NCBI GenBank assembly: GCA_004195615.1
Contig: PSPW01000007.1
Span: forward strand, 1-62,455
Source of the DNA: Methanobacteriota archaeon
GTDB taxonomy: Archaea > Thermoplasmatota > Poseidoniia > Poseidoniales > Thalassarchaeaceae
Reading direction: 5' to 3'
Length of the DNA stretch: 62,455 nt
In this document: in pieces, positions 2,016 through 62,455 of the stretch
Layout of the letters: every line of letters begins with the position of its first letter
How positions within the stretch are numbered: position 1 is the stretch's first letter
The notes under the pieces: model-generated
Seen by the model: the letters and a program-made list of their open reading frames with translations, nothing else
Database searches by the model: none
Told to the model about the DNA's origin: nothing
Translations under genes and position numbers: made by a program

Positions 2016-3065
2016 ATGTCCATGCATGCATCACTCGTCGAGTGCGTACCAAATTTTAGTGAGGGTATTGACAAGGATATTATCGAGCAAATCACAAGGC
2101 CAGTTAGGGATGCAAATAGGGTTTCGCTCCTCGATATTGATATGGGCGCTGACTTCAATAGAACTGTAGTGACAATGGTTGGTGAACCCGAAGAAGTCCT
2201 CAATACAGTGATTGACTGTACCAGGATCGCACTCGAACTCATTGACATGAGAAATCACTCTGGCGAGCATGCTAGAATGGGGGCAGTGGACGTCGTCCCC
2301 TTCATACCGATTAAGGGTGTAACTATGGATGATTGCGTCAAACTCTCAGAAAGATACGCACGTGCTGTGTCTGAAGAATTCGGATTGCCAATATACCTCT
2401 ATGCCGAAGCAGCAAGAATGCCTCAGAGGGTCAGGCTACCCGATATTAGAAGAGGCGAGTACGAGGGTTTGGGAGACAAGATTTCCTCACCTGAATGGGC
2501 ACCTGACTTTGGGCCAGCGGAATTCAAGCCAAATATGGGGGCAACCGCTACTGGAGCACGTTCGATTCTGATTGCGTATAATGTAAATTTAGATACTGAT
2601 GACAAGTCAAAGGCGAATTCTATTGCGGCGAAGATTAGGACCAGTGGCTCACTAGTAAAGGATGAAAATGGAGAGAAGATTATTGGCGAGGACGGTAAAA
2701 CTCTGAGAAAGCCTGGCATATTCCAGTCACTGCAGGCTGCTGGATGGATGTACGATTCGTCTACCGCCCAGGTCTCGATGAACTTACTTAATTACGATAA
2801 AACTGGACTCCACGACGTCACTGAAGCAATTCGTCACGAGGCGAAAAAGATAGGACTCAATGCTACTGCGGGCGAATTAGTTGGACTGGTCCCATTGAAT
2901 GCCATGCTATCAGCCGGCCACTACTACCATGATGGAGAGAACGAATCAGATCAGAATATTCTTGTCGAAAAGGCAATTTCAGGACTAATGCTTGACCATT
3001 TGAGTGACTTTGAACCACGATCTTGCATTATTGAGTGGGCTATTGCCGAGGGGGTCGAATCATGA
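2016..3065 (+). CDS. ftcD: Glutamate formimidoyltransferase
   Basis: A 349-residue protein matching the formiminotransferase domain. It begins VECVPNFSEGID, carries the conserved NRTVVTMVG segment and RNHSGEHARMGAVDV-type region, and has KPNMGATATGAR in the middle. It moves the formimino group of N-formimino-L-glutamate, the end product of HutHUI, onto tetrahydrofolate and releases glutamate. In vertebrates this domain is fused to the cyclodeaminase; here the cyclodeaminase is the next gene, overlapping by ATGA at 3062-3065, so the two are translationally coupled. The chosen start (ATG 2016) lies one TATA spacing downstream of an AAAATAT box. The 30 bp after pan are too short for much else. 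Confidence 0.93.
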   Translation: MSMHASLVECVPNFSEGIDKDIIEQITRPVRDANRVSLLDIDMGADFNRTVVTMVGEPEEVLNTVIDCTRIALELIDMRNHSGEHARMGAVDVVPFIPIKGVTMDDCVKLSERYARAVSEEFGLPIYLYAEAARMPQRVRLPDIRRGEYEGLGDKISSPEWAPDFGPAEFKPNMGATATGARSILIAYNVNLDTDDKSKANSIAAKIRTSGSLVKDENGEKIIGEDGKTLRKPGIFQSLQAAGWMYDSSTAQVSMNLLNYDKTGLHDVTEAIRHEAKKIGLNATAGELVGLVPLNAMLSAGHYYHDGENESDQNILVEKAISGLMLDHLSDFEPRSCIIEWAIAEGVES

Positions 3066-3682
3066 ACGAAGGATACAGGGAGGTACTCAGTTCGATTGGC
3101 TCCTCTGAACCGACTCCTGGTGGTGGATCAGTTGCCGCACTATCCCTTGCTCACGCCCACTCCCTTGCTATGATGGTCGCACGATTAACTATCGGTAAAG
3201 AGAAGTGGGAGGAAGGCCATGAAGCAGCTCAATCTGTGATTTCCAAGTCTCAAATAGGCGTAGAAGAGGCCATACGACTAGCGGAAATAGATGCCGAGGC
3301 ATTTGACTCAGTCATGGCTGCTTATCGACTTCCGCGAGAGTCTGAGGACCAGAAAGAAGCGAGGAAATCGATTATTCGCGAAGCAACAATTGGTGCTGCC
3401 GAAGCTCCTCTTGCAACTGCCTCCAGTGCAAGCGAACTCCTTAGCAGTCTGGAGATAATGTGTACTTCCTGTAATTCTAATGCCCTTACTGATTTAGCAT
3501 CCGCATCAGAACTTGCCATTTCTGCAGTAAATATGGCTGCAATGAACGTACGGATCAACTTAGATTTTATCAAAGGCGAGGATGTAGAGAGATTGTCATC
3601 TCAAATCGATGAAGTTGTACTCAAATCAACTACTTCGGCCGATGCAATACGACTCAATGTGAATGAGAGGTTGGGCTGGTGA
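3062..3682 (+). CDS. fchA: Formimidoyl-tetrahydrofolate cyclodeaminase
   Basis: A 206-residue helical protein of the FTCD C-terminal/FchA family. It opens with the folate-site signature SSEPTPGGGSVAALSLA and is Ala/Ser/Ile rich throughout. It converts 5-formimino-THF into 5,10-methenyl-THF and ammonia, so the carbon taken from histidine enters the one-carbon pool. The start at 3062 (MNEGYREV) overlaps the ftcD stop by four bases; a longer in-frame start at 3035 would lie inside ftcD and adds only non-conserved residues. The downstream urocanase gene overlaps its stop. The position between ftcD and hutU supports the assignment. Confidence 0.92.
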   Translation: MNEGYREVLSSIGSSEPTPGGGSVAALSLAHAHSLAMMVARLTIGKEKWEEGHEAAQSVISKSQIGVEEAIRLAEIDAEAFDSVMAAYRLPRESEDQKEARKSIIREATIGAAEAPLATASSASELLSSLEIMCTSCNSNALTDLASASELAISAVNMAAMNVRINLDFIKGEDVERLSSQIDEVVLKSTTSADAIRLNVNERLGW

Positions 3683-5697
3683 TGAATTCCAATGATACTC
3701 GCTATGGGGGGATACCTAGTGACCTCCCGCCAAGTAAAGAAATCGACAAATCCATCCCCCACGCTCCTAAAAGGCCCCAAGTCCTATGCGACAAAGAGCG
3801 ACGACTCGCAATTGAGAACTCGTTGCGGTATTTTCCAAAGGACTGGCATCATGTGTTGGCTCCTGAGTTCCTCGACGAACTAGACCATCTCGGGCACATA
3901 TACATGCATAGATTCAGACCAGATTATGAGATGTATGCAAGGCCTATAGGGGAATATCAATGCACCAGTGAGAAAGCTGCTGCGATTATGCTAATGATTC
4001 AAAATAATCTAGATCCTAACGTTGCACAGTTCCCGCATGAGCTAATCACGTATGGGGGTAATGGGGGGGTATTCCAGAATTGGGCCCAGTACCTTATTAC
4101 TATCAACTATCTAAGAAAAATGAGGGATGACCAGACTTTAGTGATGTATTCCGGGCACCCACTGGGACTGTTCCCTTCTAACTCGGAATCCCCAATGGTC
4201 GTGGTCACAAATGGGATGGTGATACCAAATTACTCTACTCAGAATGACTACGAGAGAATGAGTGCCCTGGGGGTCTCTCAGTATGGACAGATGACTGCTG
4301 GTTCGTACATGTATATCGGTCCTCAGGGAATTGTACACGGGACTACAATTACAATTCTAAATGCAGCGCGGAAATATCTGGGCAAGACTTCGGAACAGGG
4401 TCTGGACGGGGTCATGTATGTCACTTCGGGCTTAGGAGGGATGTCCGGTGCCCAAGCCAAAGCCGCAGTAATTGCAGGAGCGGTTTGCATTATCGCAGAG
4501 ATAGACCCGGTTCCAGCACACAAGAGGCATTCACAAGGATGGCTGACAGAGCTATACGAGGATTTGGATGAATTGTGCAACCGTGCTGAGGATGCTGTGT
4601 CCAACAAAGAAGCAGTTTCACTAGGGTATCTGGGAAACATCGTCGACTTACTGGAATACTTGGCCGAGAGGGAGATTACTCCCGAACTCGCAAGCGATCA
4701 GACAAGCCTACACAATCCATGGTTGGGGGGCTATATGCCTGTTGGCTTATCTTTCGACGAGAGTTTGTCTCTGATACAGTCAGACCCCGCCGAATTCCGA
4801 ATATCCGTACAGAACTCCCTTAGAAGGCACGTTGATGCAATCAACACTCTAACTGGGCGGGGAACTAGATTCTGGGACTATGGCAACGCATTCCTCCTTG
4901 AATCGCGCAGGGCTGGCGCCGATGTGCTTTCTACTGATGGCTCCTTCAGATATCCCTCTTACGTGGAGGACATCATGGGTCCAATGTGCTTCGACTTCGG
5001 ATTCGGACCATTCCGATGGGTTTGCACTTCAGGCAGTGATGAGGATCTTCGTACTACGGACCGAATCGCCAAACAAGTTCTCGAGACTCTGTCCTCTGTT
5101 TGCACTGAAGATGTCAGGACTCAGTATCTGGACAATATCAAGTGGATTTCCGAAGCAGATAAACATGAACTTGTGGTCGGTAGTAAGGCACGGATTCTAT
5201 ATGCCGATGAAGTCGGCAGGAGAACCATTGCTAGTGAATTCAACAAGGCAATTTCCCATGGGTTAGTGAGTGCTCCGATAGTATTGGGTCGGGATCACCA
5301 TGATGTGGGGGGGACAGACAGCCCTTTCCGAGAGACTGCGAACATACACGACGGTTCGATGTTCACTGCAGACATGTCTGTACATAATTTCGTAGGCGAC
5401 TCTTTTCGGGGTGCGACTTGGATCAGCCTTCACAATGGAGGTGGTGTTGGATGGGGGGAAGTCATAAACGGTGGATTTGGACTGGTAATCGACGGTTCTG
5501 ATCAAGCACAGAGAAATATTGAATCAATGATTTCTTGGGATGTGAACAATGGAATCGCCCGCAGATCATGGGCTAGGAACAGTGGCGCCATTTCGGCAAT
5601 AACCCGTGCTATGAAATCCGATGATAGATTGGAAGTAACCATTCCCAATATTGTGGACAATAGCGTCTTAGATGGCATGTTTGATGACTCTCGATGA
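3679..5697 (+). CDS. hutU: Urocanate hydratase, long eukaryote-like form
   Basis: At 672 residues this is about 110 longer than the common bacterial HutU and close to animal UROC1 (about 676). It uses tightly bound NAD+ to hydrate urocanate to imidazolonepropionate. Visible family blocks include MYSGHPLGLFPS, VVTNGMVIPNYS, GQMTAGSYMYIGPQGIVHGT, VTSGLGGMSGAQ, VLGRDHHDVGGTDSP and SLHNGGGVGWGEVINGG. Several match animal urocanase nearly word for word from memory. The start is GTG at 3679 or ATG at 3682; both touch the fchA stop (TGA 3680-3682), so translation is coupled. A short hairpin lies between this gene and hutH. Confidence 0.95.
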   Translation: MMNSNDTRYGGIPSDLPPSKEIDKSIPHAPKRPQVLCDKERRLAIENSLRYFPKDWHHVLAPEFLDELDHLGHIYMHRFRPDYEMYARPIGEYQCTSEKAAAIMLMIQNNLDPNVAQFPHELITYGGNGGVFQNWAQYLITINYLRKMRDDQTLVMYSGHPLGLFPSNSESPMVVVTNGMVIPNYSTQNDYERMSALGVSQYGQMTAGSYMYIGPQGIVHGTTITILNAARKYLGKTSEQGLDGVMYVTSGLGGMSGAQAKAAVIAGAVCIIAEIDPVPAHKRHSQGWLTELYEDLDELCNRAEDAVSNKEAVSLGYLGNIVDLLEYLAEREITPELASDQTSLHNPWLGGYMPVGLSFDESLSLIQSDPAEFRISVQNSLRRHVDAINTLTGRGTRFWDYGNAFLLESRRAGADVLSTDGSFRYPSYVEDIMGPMCFDFGFGPFRWVCTSGSDEDLRTTDRIAKQVLETLSSVCTEDVRTQYLDNIKWISEADKHELVVGSKARILYADEVGRRTIASEFNKAISHGLVSAPIVLGRDHHDVGGTDSPFRETANIHDGSMFTADMSVHNFVGDSFRGATWISLHNGGGVGWGEVINGGFGLVIDGSDQAQRNIESMISWDVNNGIARRSWARNSGAISAITRAMKSDDRLEVTIPNIVDNSVLDGMFDDSR

Positions 5698-57350: not shown

Positions 57351-58289
57351 ATGACCAATGGGGCAAGGAAAGTTGCTGTAATCGGTGCTGGAAACGTTGG
57401 AGCTACATGCGCCTTCGTTTTGGCCGAGAGAAAGGTAGGGGAAGTCGTTCTTCTTGACATCTTCGAGGGCTTTGCGAAAGGTAAGGCACTAGATATGAGC
57501 CAGGGGGGAAGAATTCTGAACTATGATGGCAGAATTACGGGAACCAAAGACTATGCCGACATTGCTGGATCAGATGTTGTGGTCGTGACTTCGGGTTTCC
57601 CCCGGCAACCGGGCATGAGTAGAGAGGACCTCATTGGGAAAAATGCAGACATCATCTCACAAGTTGGCGAGGGAATTAGGGACAATGCTCCAGATGCTGT
57701 GATAGTTATGGTCACAAACCCACTGGATCTGATGACTTACCATATGCAGAAGATTACTGGATTTCCACACAGTCGCGTAGTAGGACAGGCGGGCATCCTA
57801 GATAGTGCTAGGATGACTCACTTCATCGCACAGGCTGTTGGCTGCAGCAATGAGGATGTGCAGGCAATGGTCCTAGGAGGTCATGGAGATACAATGGTTC
57901 CTTTGCCAAGGTACACGACGGTGAATGGGATCCCAGTCACCCAACTGCTCAGCGAGGACGAAGTCAAGGCAATCTGCGAGAGAACTGCTAGCGGCGGTGG
58001 GGAGATAGTGAAGCTGCTTGAAAGGGGCAGCGCTTTCTACGCCCCGGGTAGTGCTGCTGCGATAATGGCAGAGGCAATACTGGATGACAGGAAGAGGGTG
58101 CTGCCATGTAGCACATATCTCAGTGGAGAGTATGGAATGGAAGACGTATACATAGGAGTTCCTGTAGTATTGGGCAAAGACGGCGTTGAGAGAATCATAG
58201 AACTGGAACTTGAGGCCAACGAGCTTGAGAGTCTCCAAGGTTCGGGGTCATTCTACAAAGAGCAGTTGAGTACAATACTCGGATATTGA
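57351..58289 (+). CDS. mdh: Malate dehydrogenase
   Basis: 312 residues of the LDH/MDH family, [LDH-like] MDH type. NAD-fold VAVIGAGNVGATCAFVLA, mobile-loop FPRQPGMSREDLIGKN (Arg at the position reading the malate carboxylate), VTNPLDLMTYHM, RVVGQAGILDSARM, and the catalytic His in LGGHGDTMVPLPRY. It interconverts malate and oxaloacetate in the TCA cycle. Isolated promoter region of about 94 bp shared with the CPBP gene. Confidence 0.95.
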   Translation: MTNGARKVAVIGAGNVGATCAFVLAERKVGEVVLLDIFEGFAKGKALDMSQGGRILNYDGRITGTKDYADIAGSDVVVVTSGFPRQPGMSREDLIGKNADIISQVGEGIRDNAPDAVIVMVTNPLDLMTYHMQKITGFPHSRVVGQAGILDSARMTHFIAQAVGCSNEDVQAMVLGGHGDTMVPLPRYTTVNGIPVTQLLSEDEVKAICERTASGGGEIVKLLERGSAFYAPGSAAAIMAEAILDDRKRVLPCSTYLSGEYGMEDVYIGVPVVLGKDGVERIIELELEANELESLQGSGSFYKEQLSTILGY

Positions 58290-58304: not shown

Positions 58305-59081
58305 TTGAACAGAGTGGCTACGGAATATTTGCATCTCGAACATGATGGGAAGTTGCTTCTCGTAGACAAATCCGGTAATGGCCCGGTGAAACCCCAGATG
58401 GGGAGAAATTTTGTTCGGCCTGGTGATGAAACAATCAGGCTACCGACTCCCGAAGAAGTCGAAGGAATGGGCATTGAATGGACGTTGAGAAGGGTGAATC
58501 GAATAAGTCTAGGTTCATTTGACTACATTGTCACATATGGGGTACCAGATATTGCATGGCCAGAAAACTGGGCGTGGAAGGATTCGGTAATTAGTGATAG
58601 TACAGTAGATCCATTAGTTTGTGAGTCTGTCTATCGAACTCTTCACAGGGTTGTGAGCAAGGTCGTAATTACGAACTCAAATAATGAAATTCTGATGGTT
58701 AGGGCTTCTCGTGGATTCTTCTCTGGTTGTTGGACTCTACCGGGTGGTTTTGTCGATTATGGGGAACATCCAAGAGAGGCGGCACAGAGAGAAGCTAAGG
58801 AAGAGTTAGGCATCACAATTGTGATTCCAGACCCATTGGGTGAGAGTGGTGGTGTTGTCCTAGGTGATGATGGTGCCATCATTCAGAATGAGATTTTCAA
58901 CGAAGAGGGAATAAATTGGCTTTCTTTTACCTATACTTGTCAAACGGACTTAGAGGGGCAGGAGATTATTCCAAAGGAAGGAGAAATAGATGAAGCTAGG
59001 TGGTTCTCGTTCGAGAAGGCTTTAGAATCAGCCGTATCCAAATTCGATATCAGTGCGATAAACAGAATCAGGAGCAGTTGA
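58305..59081 (+). CDS. NUDIX hydrolase with N-terminal extension
   Basis: 258 residues from TTG 58305. The Nudix box [20 protein letters not shown] followed by ELGI is complete (GX5EX7REUXEEXGU) at about residues 146-168. The first ~110 residues form a separate, unrecognised domain ([20 protein letters not shown]). Such fusions occur in NADH pyrophosphatase-like enzymes, but the zinc Cys of NudC are absent. Substrate unknown. It follows mdh by 15 bp. Confidence 0.85.
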
Positions 59082-59099: not shown

Positions 59100-59354
59100 T
59101 CAATGATCTTCTAACCACTCTGATAACTCATCGTTGAGATAGTTGATTTCAGTCTTGAGATCGGTTATTTGAGCGCTTGAAGCAGCTATATTGTCCAATT
59201 TCCTTACCATCGCTTGATAGGCATCACTGTGGTTTTCACAGGTAAAGGGGCCACCTTGGCAAATCCATCCTTCGTCGATCAAACTCTGAACCTTAGATTC
59301 GAGAGTCTCACCTACTTTGGGGTTGAGGCCCCCCGCCACTATCTTGTACTTCAT
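59100..59354 (-). CDS. DUF1737-like small protein
   Basis: 84 residues from ATG 59354. MKYKIVAGGLNPKVGETLES then VQSLIDEGWICQGGPFTCEN match the DUF1737 pattern (a ~50-residue fold ending in GW..QGGP). The rest is a coiled coil (TDLKTEINYLNDELSEWLED). It is led by repeat element R1, whose near end lies 10 bases upstream, the third in a series of small genes each with that leader. The longer frame back to 59705 merges unrelated sequence and is not the gene. Confidence 0.72.
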   Translation of the reverse strand: MKYKIVAGGLNPKVGETLESKVQSLIDEGWICQGGPFTCENHSDAYQAMVRKLDNIAASSAQITDLKTEINYLNDELSEWLEDH

Positions 59355-59364
59355 AATCATCGAA

Positions 59365-59394
59365 GGGGGTGTCAGCCTTGAACGGTTGGTTCGA
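59365..59394 (-). repeat. Repeat element R1 (leader of the DUF1737 gene)
   Basis: Shares 26 identical bases with R3 (59722-59752); the core on the minus strand is ACCGTTCAAGGCTGACAC followed by a C-run. The element holds a short GAAC/GTTC inverted repeat. It ends 10 bases before the ATG at 59354. Confidence 0.8.
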
Positions 59395-59406
59395 GGAGTG
59401 AAGGGG

Positions 59407-59529
59407 CTACGCCAAGATGCCACTAAGGGGGTTGTCTCGGAGCATGGAAGTCCTGCTGAAGATGATAAAGAGAATGAACAGGAAGATGAAAACGAGTCTT
59501 CCCACATTGAGGATTGACCTGATGTCCAT
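59407..59529 (-). CDS. 40-residue single-span membrane peptide
   Basis: Reads MDIRSILNVGRLVFIFLFIL then FIIFSRTSMLRDNPLSGILA. One membrane helix at about 11-25 with a basic residue on each side. Starts 12 bases after repeat R2 and ends just before R1. No family recognised. The position relative to the repeat, equal to that of its two neighbours, argues that it is translated. Confidence 0.5.
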   Translation of the reverse strand: MDIRSILNVGRLVFIFLFILFIIFSRTSMLRDNPLSGILA

Positions 59530-59541
59530 GATTTGCAAAGA

Positions 59542-59571
59542 GGGGTACCAGTCTTGAACGGTTTGTCCAAA
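59542..59571 (-). repeat. Repeat element R2 (diverged copy)
   Basis: Keeps the CTTGAACGGTT core (plus strand), a neighbouring TTTGTCC in place of TTGGTTC, and the G-run; on the minus strand it reads ACCGTTCAAGACTGGTACCC. It ends 12 bases before the ATG at 59529. About 180 bp lie between successive elements. Confidence 0.7.
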
Positions 59572-59574
59572 CGT

Positions 59575-59712
59575 CTAATGTTCAACGTAAAAGAGGTCCA
59601 AAATCCAAGGAAGAATTCGCCCCATGAACAGACTATAAAACAGCACAACAGCCAACACCAAGCCGCAAGATTCAGCGAATCCGAGACTGAAACCGGCAAA
59701 TTCACCGCTCAC
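59575..59712 (-). CDS. 45-residue single-span membrane peptide
   Basis: Reads MSGEFAGFSLGFAESCGLVL then AVVLFYSLFMGRILPWILDL and ends FYVEH. Strongly hydrophobic from about 17 to 43. GTG start, nine bases after repeat R3. It ends four bases before R2. Unrelated in sequence to the next small membrane peptide apart from size and hydrophobicity. Confidence 0.5.
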   Translation of the reverse strand: MSGEFAGFSLGFAESCGLVLAVVLFYSLFMGRILPWILDLFYVEH

Positions 59713-59721
59713 GACTCTCGA

Positions 59722-59752
59722 GGGGTGTGTCAGCCTTGAACGGTTGGTTCGA
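59722..59752 (-). repeat. Repeat element R3 (leader of the 45-residue gene)
   Basis: Near-identical to R1 over 26 bases. It begins only eight bases after the GIY-YIG gene's stop codon on the minus strand and ends nine bases before the GTG at 59712. Confidence 0.8.
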
Positions 59753-59759
59753 TATGAGG

Positions 59760-60437
59760 TCAGAAGTCGCGCTTGTAGCGGTCATTGAGCAATTCGTAGT
59801 ACGGGAGGTTGGCCTTCATCCACTTCACGGACTTGCCCCTCGCAGTCCCGTACACCTTCCGCCGCACCTTCAGAGCGAACTTCTCGGGATTGGTCAGTTT
59901 GGCCTTCGGTTTCTTGATTATGTGTCGACGAACCCCGCTAGCAATGGTCCGCCTCCTGCTTCTTGGAAATTCGGCACTTTCCTCCGCCTTCAGGGGACGA
60001 AAGACCCAGGACTTCGTCGTGATTTTGACCCCGTCAATAGTCGTCTTGGCGTAGCACTTAGACCGCCCGTGAGTGTCCCTGCCGCATCGATTACAGGGTC
60101 CCGAGGACATCTTTTCGGTCTTCTTCACCAGGTCCCGATATGTCTCCTCGGGGAGTCGGGCTTGGCACCACTTCCCGCCTCGGACGTTGGCGACCCCGTA
60201 CTTCGCCATCATCTCCAGGGTGATCCGGTCCTCGTCGGAGAGTTTCATGCCGGACTCGACCCTCTCGTAGTCCACCGGGCGGTGCTTCTTGGTCCATGCC
60301 GCGCCCTTCCCGGCGATGTGGGCCTCAACTCTGTTCATCGCATTTCGAGACATCCCGACGTAGTACTTGCCGCCCTCCAACTCCAGGCAGTAAATCGTGA
60401 CCACGTAAGGGGGAGAGTGAGTGCAGGCATAAGCCAT
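59760..60437 (-). CDS. GIY-YIG nuclease with CCHC zinc knuckle
   Basis: 225 residues from ATG 60437 (an in-frame ATG at 60515 gives a longer form). The GIY-YIG core is VVTIYCLELEGGKYYVGMSR at about 12-31, then RVEAHIAGKGAAWTKKHRP and the catalytic-Glu region TLEMMAKYGVANVRGG (E75). A zinc knuckle CNRCGRDTHGRSKC (CX2CX4HX4C) lies at 115-128. The rest is basic. GC content is visibly higher than the flanking genes, suggesting transfer from a virus or other host. Zinc-knuckle GIY-YIG proteins are usually mobile-element or virus encoded. No intron or intein host gene is adjacent. Confidence 0.85.
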   Translation of the reverse strand: MAYACTHSPPYVVTIYCLELEGGKYYVGMSRNAMNRVEAHIAGKGAAWTKKHRPVDYERVESGMKLSDEDRITLEMMAKYGVANVRGGKWCQARLPEETYRDLVKKTEKMSSGPCNRCGRDTHGRSKCYAKTTIDGVKITTKSWVFRPLKAEESAEFPRSRRRTIASGVRRHIIKKPKAKLTNPEKFALKVRRKVYGTARGKSVKWMKANLPYYELLNDRYKRDF

Positions 60438-60533
60438 CCGAGAGGGCTTATCTTGACCCTCTTGAGAAAACAACGTGGAATTATTATGGGAAATATGATG
60501 GAAAAATACATCCATATTAATTGATTAATAACA

Positions 60534-62455
60534 TTATTCCTCTTCGTCTTCTTCATCACTTCTTCGGCCAATACCAGTTTTGGTACCGGCCAGTAAAATA
60601 ATAGATATAACTACAAGAATTGGTGCAATTATAATAAGTGAATTCTTTTCAACATCTTTCTTAATACAATCAGAAGCATCGGAGGCTCCATAATTTGAAC
60701 TATATGTTCCTTTAGCACATTCAGTTTGAATAATAGATGCACTAGTATCAACGTAGTATCCTGGATCTGCTTCGTTACAGAGTATTTGACCAGTCATATT
60801 TTGATACGTTCCTAGAGCACATGCAGTTTGATTTGTGGAAGAATTAGTGTCAACGTAGTATCCTGCATCTGTATCCTTACAAAAATTCTGACCAGTCTGA
60901 TTTTGATATGTACCTAATTCACACGGAATTTGAGAAGTCTGCCCTATTGAATCGGTATAGTATCCAATTGATGCATCTTCACAGGATAATTGCCCTATAC
61001 TCGCCTGATAAGTTCCTGTTGCACATACAGTTTGATTAGATTGGCCAGTTGATCCAACATAATATCCTGCATCTGCATTATCACAGGATGTTTGGGCCGT
61101 ATCGGCCTGATATGTACCTGGAGCACATGCAGTTTGAGTAGTGGATGCATTAGTATCAATGAAATATCCTGCTGAAGCATCAGTGCAAGATGATTGTCCT
61201 GTAGACGCTTGGTATGTTCCTATTGCACAGGGTATTTGATTTGCGGATGCATCAGTATCAATGTAATATCCTACATCTGCATCGCCACAAGATGATTGTC
61301 CTGTTGCAGATTGGTATGTTCCTGCTGCACATGCAGTTTGATTAGATTGACCAGTTGATCGAACGTAGTATCCTGCTGAAGCATCAGTGCAAGATGTTTG
61401 TCCAGTAACTGCTTGGTATGTTCCTGCTGCACATGCAGTTTGAGTGGTGGATGCATTAGTATCAACGTAATATCCTGCATCTGCATCGCCACAAGATGAT
61501 TGCCCTGTTGCAGATTGGTATGTTCCTGCTGCACATTCTGTTTGTGATATTTGTCCGGTTGAAGGAACGTAGTATCCTGCAACTGCTTCGATGCAAGATG
61601 TTTGGCCTGTATTTGGTTGGTATGTCCCCAGAGAACATGCAATTTGATTTGTAGATGCGTTATTATCCATATAATATCCTGCATCTGCATAACCACAGGA
61701 AGTTTGTCCAGTATCTGGTTGGTATGTTCCTGCTGCACATTCTGTTTGTGATATTTGGCCGGTTGAAGGGACGTAATATCCTGCTGAAGCATCAGTGCAA
61801 GATGATTGTCCAGTAGCTGCTTGGTATGTTCCTGCTGCACATTCTGTTTGGGATATTTGTCCGGTTGAAGGAACGTAATAACCTGCATCTGCATCATCAC
61901 AGGAGGTTTGTCCTGTTGCAGATTGGTAGGTTCCTGTGGCGCATTCAATTTGAGCAGTTTGAGCAGTTGATCCAACATAATTTCCTGCATCTGCATCGTC
62001 ACAAGATAATTGTCCTGTGGCAGATTGGTATGCCCCTACTGCACATGCAGTTTGAGCAGTGGATGCGTTGGTATCAACGTAGAATCCTGCAGAAGCATCA
62101 GTGCAAGATGATTGCCCTGTAGATGGCTGGTATGTTCCTGCTGCACATTCTGTTTGTGTGATAGAAGCTGTAGAATCTACATAATATCCTGCATCTGCAA
62201 TATCACAAGATGATTGTCCATTATTTGGTTGGTATGTTCCTAATGCACAGGGTATTTGATTTGTGGAAGAATTAGCGTCAACATAATATCCTGCATCTGC
62301 ATCATCACAAGAGGTTTGTCCTGTTGCAGATTGGTATGTTCCTGGAACACATGCAGTTTGATTAGATTGGCCAGTTGATCCAACGTAGTATCCTGCTGAA
62401 GCATCAGTGCAAGATGATTGCCCTGTAGATGGCTGGTATGTTCCTGCTGCACATG
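60534..62455 (-). CDS. Giant Cys-rich repeat surface protein, C-terminal part
   Basis: The frame is open from the right edge to 60534 with no stop; the 5' end is outside. It holds 17 complete 34-residue repeats (102 bp each) plus a degenerate eighteenth. Consensus: CAxGTYQxxTGQxSCxDAxA then GYYVxxxxSxxQTx, two Cys per unit. This matches the ephrin-receptor-like/GCC2-GCC3 (PF07699) type. At the end is a membrane helix (NSLIIIAPILVVISIILLAG) and an acidic tail DEEDEEE. The Cys presumably form one disulfide per unit, giving a stiff stalk. DNA identity between units is high, so copy number may vary and assemblies may collapse here. Confidence 0.88.
   Translation of the reverse strand, partial: CAAGTYQPSTGQSSCTDASAGYYVGSTGQSNQTACVPGTYQSATGQTSCDDADAGYYVDANSSTNQIPCALGTYQPNNGQSSCDIADAGYYVDSTASITQTECAAGTYQPSTGQSSCTDASAGFYVDTNASTAQTACAVGAYQSATGQLSCDDADAGNYVGSTAQTAQIECATGTYQSATGQTSCDDADAGYYVPSTGQISQTECAAGTYQAATGQSSCTDASAGYYVPSTGQISQTECAAGTYQPDTGQTSCGYADAGYYMDNNASTNQIACSLGTYQPNTGQTSCIEAVAGYYVPSTGQISQTECAAGTYQSATGQSSCGDADAGYYVDTNASTTQTACAAGTYQAVTGQTSCTDASAGYYVRSTGQSNQTACAAGTYQSATGQSSCGDADVGYYIDTDASANQIPCAIGTYQASTGQSSCTDASAGYFIDTNASTTQTACAPGTYQADTAQTSCDNADAGYYVGSTGQSNQTVCATGTYQASIGQLSCEDASIGYYTDSIGQTSQIPCELGTYQNQTGQNFCKDTDAGYYVDTNSSTNQTACALGTYQNMTGQILCNEADPGYYVDTSASIIQTECAKGTYSSNYGASDASDCIKKDVEKNSLIIIAPILVVISIILLAGTKTGIGRRSDEEDEEE

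Follow-up and report, generated by a model that had tools for sequence, protein, structure and literature searches.

Genes and repeated elements at the locus

The window, i.e. the whole stretch of 62,455 nucleotides that was analysed, originates from Ca. Thalassarchaeaceae (Marine Group IIb archaea). Three small genes occupy 59.1-59.75 kb on its minus strand, and one copy of a short repeated element lies 5' of each of them. Read 5' to 3' on this strand, the order is a GIY-YIG gene, the element R3, a 45-residue ORF, R2, a 40-residue ORF, R1 and an 84-residue ORF. Downstream of the last ORF a NUDIX gene is located in convergent orientation (58305-59081, plus strand), which forms the conserved right border of a variable slot, and past it follows a further conserved neighbour, the malate/lactate dehydrogenase gene (57351-58289, plus strand). 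On the other side, directly upstream of R3, the minus strand encodes a GIY-YIG nuclease-like protein (59760-60515) containing a zinc knuckle of the CCHC type; its occurrence is patchy in the genus. The stop codon of this gene is followed by TGACCTCATATCGAACC, and the same was found after two other genes. A conserved 3' tail, TTCTGACCTCATATCGRACC, was considered as a second cassette boundary and was rejected, as it follows three genes (in the window, in L056 and in L135) and is not general. The region 60534-62455 (minus strand) codes for a Cys-rich protein with 102-bp repeats (Ephrin_rec-like), which runs off the contig end; a 1627-residue protein resembling it adjoins an element-led unit in G068 (L135 5100-9983).

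R1 (CGAACCAACCGTTCAAGGCTGACACCCCC) with its 11-nt spacer to the ATG covers 59352-59393 (repeat copy 59360-59394; profile E 4.2e-10), its two boxes being TTCAAG at 59382-59377 and CACCCC at 59371-59366. R2 with a 12-nt spacer to the ATG covers 59527-59569 (repeat copy 59536-59570; profile E 9.8e-5) and has TTCAAG at 59558-59553 and TACCCC at 59547-59542, while R3 with an 11-nt spacer to a GTG covers 59710-59752 (repeat copy 59718-59752; profile E 1.3e-8) and has TTCAAG at 59740-59735 and CACACC at 59729-59724, all on the minus strand. The original prediction had described three genes, each led by the same element ending 9-12 bases before the start codon, with a spacing of about 180 bp between the elements. 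Mechanical repeat finding reproduced this arrangement: the three copies form one repeat family (identity of R1 to R2 69%, to R3 94%) spaced by 176 and 182 bp, and the CACCCC box and the start codon are 11, 12 and 11 nt apart in R1, R2 and R3, respectively. The 26 identical bases predicted for R1 and R3 were also recovered, as a consecutive run (TCGAACCAACCGTTCAAGGCTGACAC), and R2 retains the core as AACCGTTCAAG. The 11-base core CTTGAACGGTT occurs three times in the 1.63-Mb genome, each time within the array; its expectation in the window at up to one mismatch is 0.78. Chance repetition of 11-mers was ruled out by the whole-genome counts together with a reversed-pattern control; the 26 identical bases and the recurrence of the element throughout the genus likewise set it aside.

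The 84-residue gene, the last of the array (59100-59354, minus strand), shares 98% amino acid identity with its counterpart in G021 and 59% with that in G017, with dN/dS values of 0.09-0.16. The DUF1737 label given to it earlier holds by way of a 54-residue relative, which scores above the Pfam cut-off for PF08410 (E 3.4e-6) and is similar to the window protein over 49 residues (35% in pairwise comparison); the window protein itself stays below the gathering cut-off, with no PF08410 match, and the G017 homologue reaches E 0.21, so that the similarity is a remote one. About 12 genomes in the genus contain an orthologue of the 40-residue gene (MDIRSILN...RTSMLRDNPLSGILA; 59407-59529, minus strand), the pooled pN/pS being 0.12. 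For the 45-residue ORF, which has a GTG start (59575-59712, minus strand), no homologue was detected in the genus; the hydrophobicity of its product is 2.13 (KD19). As had been proposed, the products of these two ORFs appear from their sequences to be single-span membrane peptides, each having one strong hydrophobic segment. With regard to the toxin, phage or stress modules to which they had been compared, neither a PHROGs match nor a virus contig with the element was found.

Distribution and geometry of the element

A DNA search of the relatives revealed pieces of the array scattered among genomes of the same genus, and a pattern of 18-22 bases detected 20 sites, distributed over 13 of the 28 genomes, compared with a single match of the reversed-pattern control. 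With a sequence profile the element was found in further genera of the Thalassarchaeaceae (G062, G068, G109 and G064), while the sister family gave weak matches alone (about E 0.01 or worse). A scan of 84,980 species with the exact pattern returned Thalassarchaeaceae and six bacterial matches; since this number is close to the prior chance estimate, occurrence in unrelated taxa was rejected.

Altogether about 38 element sites were collected in 17 genomes, and nearly all of them precede ORFs of 30-109 residues (a range that omits one ORF cut by a contig end), a clear membrane segment being present in 23 of 38. The element-led genes belong to at least ten families with dN/dS values mostly of 0.09-0.35, higher in two young pairs, and this purifying selection argues that the genes are real; the 45-residue ORF alone has no relative. 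The 40-residue and DUF1737-like ORFs, the conservation of which the original prediction had counted on, are likewise kept in relatives under purifying selection. The single long gene in the element scan was purH, with a weak match. This gene (PurH-like, about 528 residues; L138 3228, L150 4978) carries at the promoter position AACCATTCAAGGCCACC, which matches the element in part. At two elements that are decayed or solo (G017 C36:1195 and :1518) no ORF begins where a start would be expected.

In the consensus, numbered from the start codon, TTCAAG at -28 to -23 is followed by five variable bases and CACCCC at -17 to -12, and the start codon comes almost always 11 nt further on. The logo additionally contains AACMAACC at -37 to -30, CT at -11/-10 and C at -1; the invariance of TTCAAG in it is partly due to the search having been seeded on this box. 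When 579 kb of loci were scanned for TTCAAG-N5-CACCCC with up to one mismatch, 51 sites were obtained, not independent where orthologous, of which 35 have a start codon at +11 and 8 at +12, the other offsets being represented by about two each. Thus 43 of the 51 sites have a start codon at one of these two offsets, and the elements are not placed at random relative to genes. Together with the conservation of the short ORFs, this lets the cassette/leader idea pass the refutation test that the original prediction had set for it. A second variant of the element, GGACCTCRCTACRTTCAAG...YACCCCC, was noticed (L054 4720-4790 and 4970-5030; L144 4890; L048 5446), in which the boxes and their spacing are unchanged and the upstream part is different.

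In leaderless archaeal promoters the message begins with the start codon, a TATA-like box precedes its first base by about 22-30 bp, and a BRE lies upstream of the box. De novo (EM) motif search in the upstream regions of long ORFs gave T[CG]A[AT] with a peak at -28, from a few hundred upstream regions with uncertain starts. TT[CG]AAA was found 8 times at -30/-29 of ordinary genes against 0.6 expected, and AACC is raised at -34/-33. TTCAAG of the element at -28 to -23 thus occupies the position of the general motif, which would place the transcription start at the start codon. The BRE-like AACMAACC at -37 to -30 is common, and a second variant of it, GGACCTCRCTAC, is also present. In the 40-residue family the TATA spot holds either AACCGTTCAAG or CTCATAG/CTAATAG, and such alternative boxes at one spot suggest that this gene has switched promoters while their position remained the same. 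CCCC was not enriched in ordinary boxed promoters, which marks the -17 box as the special part of the element.

The hairpin proposed in the original prediction, to be checked by covariation, was not borne out: the element has 0 consensus pairs, with neither conserved nor covarying ones, and a hypothetical RNA hairpin is 62% paired without compensatory changes. Since TTCAAG stands at the TATA position of leaderless genes, no RNA hairpin was found, and ordinary genes as well as the 40-residue orthologues carry other boxes at the same place, we read the element as a promoter rather than as the shared translation-controlling leader that had been suggested. The length of its conserved stretch, about 27 bp, exceeds that of a usual TATA promoter and counts against this model.

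The variable slot and the break points

The array fills a slot bounded by tRNA-Pro(TGG) on one side and by the NUDIX gene on the other. This gap is empty in seven relatives (32-101 bp), while elsewhere it measures 224-2655 bp and contains one to three element-led units. In four genomes no more than about 20 bp separate the end of tRNA-Pro from the start of the element. In G000 the tRNA-Pro gene is on another contig, which breaks 72 bp past the tRNA, and G000 and G021 have about 25 bp in common after tRNA-Pro and then diverge. Hypervariable sites tend to fall near contig ends, and 14 of 30 element loci lie at most 2 kb from one, against 3.0 expected.

Downstream, copies of a unit are 93-96% alike; 40-53 bp ahead of the start codon, at the outer edge of the element, all homology between them abruptly ends. 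Between G000 and G021 it begins at -40 (93% over 5.8 kb downstream), between G000 and G007 at -48 (95% over 5.2 kb) and between G022 and G006 at -44 (96%); in the last pair an 868-bp stretch with a 168-residue gene is present in one genome and missing in the other. G062 and G068, members of different genera, are homologous from -53 on; the identity is 95% along 666 bp, and the sequences flanking this stretch on either side are unrelated. This stretch (L134 about 4842-5460, L136 about 3060-3725) consists of the element, a 43-residue gene and a GNAT acetyltransferase gene overlapping it by ATGA, and the sequence comparison indicates that the pair has moved between genera as one 666-bp unit. Compared with G011, G023 has an extra 139-bp stretch that is exactly one element plus one 30-residue gene. 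In G021 (L054 5165-5190) the element is fused to a 20-bp antisense tRNA-Pro fragment at TTCGAACCA, which looks like recombination at a short shared sequence. All genomes are MAGs, and assembly joins could account for some of these break points. The suggestion that the element acts as a cassette boundary was supported for the 5' side, where homology between copies repeatedly ends at the upstream limit of the element.

Proposed explanation and its alternatives

The explanation that we consider probable is that of a specialised leaderless promoter of the Thalassarchaeaceae, combined with the exchange of promoter/mini-ORF units that break at its upstream edge. The promoter would be composed of the BRE-like AACMAACC (-37 to -30), TTCAAG as the equivalent of TATA (-28 to -23) and the second box CACCCC(C)T (-17 to -10), with transcription presumably beginning at the start codon 11 nt after the second box. 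It would drive tiny, mostly single-span membrane proteins, and since each promoter serves one gene, promoter and mini-ORF would make a self-sufficient unit. Such units would pile up in tandem behind tRNA-Pro(TGG) and stand singly at other loci, and they would be gained, lost and exchanged by recombination, for which the promoter sequence that they share is itself the probable homology handle. That no recombinase was identified counts against this explanation. As to the CACCCC box, it probably either binds a common regulator or makes an additional core-promoter contact. The taxonomic range, the gene sizes and the fixed geometry, the break points, the purifying selection and the filled and empty slots are observed; promoter activity, co-regulation, leaderless transcription and the way of recombination are inferred.

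It is rather unlikely that the element is instead mainly the attachment or cassette site of a site-specific recombinase, the 11-nt distance to the start codon being a by-product of the cassette structure. tRNA genes are common targets of integration, and the tandem arrays adjoin tRNA-Pro, with the element close to the tRNA end in four genomes and fused to a fragment of it in G021; homology breaks at the edge of the element, and R1 and R3 hold an inverted repeat, TCGAAC-CAACC-GTTCAA, which resembles recombinase core sites. However, the inverted repeat is not conserved, as seen from the pairing figures above, and conservation is seen in TTCAAG and CACCCC, which stand at promoter distance. No second copy of the tRNA 3' end lies at the other end of the array, and a match to the GIY-YIG neighbour was found in 3 of 28 genomes of the genus, its own included, the other two having no element near it.

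That the element serves a dedicated transcription factor as its operator, superimposed on an ordinary promoter, and so defines a regulon of co-regulated membrane mini-proteins in which homology up to the break point reflects selection on the site, we regard as unlikely when taken as the whole explanation. Archaeal repressors often bind between the TATA position and the start, which is where the CACCCC box, absent from ordinary promoters, is situated, and the element is common to unrelated gene families. This reading leaves unexplained the abrupt upstream loss of homology in pairs 93-96% identical downstream and the 666-bp unit common to two genera; it is nevertheless compatible with the specialised promoter, into which it fits as one part.

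An origin in a virus or satellite that integrated at tRNA-Pro and left remnants there, bringing a viral promoter family, is improbable and only weakly open. The slot adjacent to a tRNA, the many small ORFs, the patchy distribution and the GIY-YIG neighbour, which has weak similarity to phage GIY-YIG proteins, would all suit it. Against this, two patterns of the element had no match in the 2.9 million viral contigs of IMG/VR, nor had the GIY-YIG and DUF1737-like proteins; no PHROGs matches were obtained, the element was absent from the phage DNA searched, and solitary units stand at many ordinary chromosomal loci. Least probable is a translated-leader or 5'-UTR element controlling translation, for which the close and fixed distance to the start codon speaks, as in the Start Associated Sequences of mycobacteriophages (PMC3203893), and against which stand the lack of conserved structure and of a Shine-Dalgarno-like sequence in the element, TTCAAG at the TATA position and the TATA-like alternatives in orthologues.

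Of the known systems, two come closest to the element, in function the promoter-early stem-loops that T4-type phages carry (PeSLs; Arbiol et al. 2010; Comeau et al. 2014, cited in PMC4503421) and in layout the Start Associated Sequences, and it is a member of neither. As far as PeSLs are described in PMC4503421, they are repeated promoter-bearing cassettes between small variable ORFs at sites of gene shuffling, and the coincidence with shuffling break points between small ORFs is found here too. The order of promoter and then stem-loop is not (0 consensus pairs), and the present element differs in belonging to a cellular archaeal chromosome, in its archaeal rather than sigma-70 promoter geometry, and in its units of one mini-gene with a slot beside a tRNA gene. 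The SAS/ESAS of Cluster K mycobacteriophages, for which a function was proposed from position, share with it the short repeat at a fixed short distance from the starts of many unrelated genes, in one orientation (PMC3203893). They are 13 bp long (GGGATAGGAGCCC) and lie 3-7 bp before the start with a Shine-Dalgarno core, so that sequence and distance differ from those of the element, which has its boxes at -28 and -17, no Shine-Dalgarno-like core and a cellular genome as host. Integron cassettes, including those of archaeal integrons, are likewise one-orientation arrays of small one-gene units that are gained and lost, but their attC sites lie 3' of the gene and fold as imperfect hairpins (PMC9668308), while the element lies 5' of its genes, has promoter features and shows no conserved fold. 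No integron integrase was found among the scanned proteins of the window end, and by the features tested the array is not an integron. In its box and the spacing of this box to the start codon, the element appears to agree with archaeal leaderless promoters, from which it differs by the extra, strongly conserved CACCCC box and its near-exclusive tie to mini-genes.

A further possibility, put forward tentatively, is a cell-encoded archaeal promoter-cassette system, in which the dedicated two-box promoter would serve for expression and at the same time as the recombination handle for a pool of mini-genes, circulating in one family of marine archaea and stockpiled at one tRNA-Pro slot, a role like that of integrons in bacteria without an attC-type hairpin. 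For Marine Group II archaea, which are abundant and uncultured, the open literature searched yielded no paper on promoters; the element would supply a concrete promoter model for them. It is also a simple genomic signature, the start sites of which can reveal unannotated membrane mini-proteins. Gene units with their own promoters would be exchanged across species and genera in cells as PeSLs are in phages, and the acquisition and expression of orphan small genes becomes testable from existing ocean metatranscriptomes.

A 22-bp palindromic repeat was considered as the carrier of the units and rejected, as it is limited to a few genomes. As a repeat of 22-36 bp (TCGTGAGTCCGGAAGCTCAGGGGTTTAGATCCACGA) it lies close to several elements (L046 1402-1423; upstream in L132 and L135), and three copies of it are present on contig C15 of G000.
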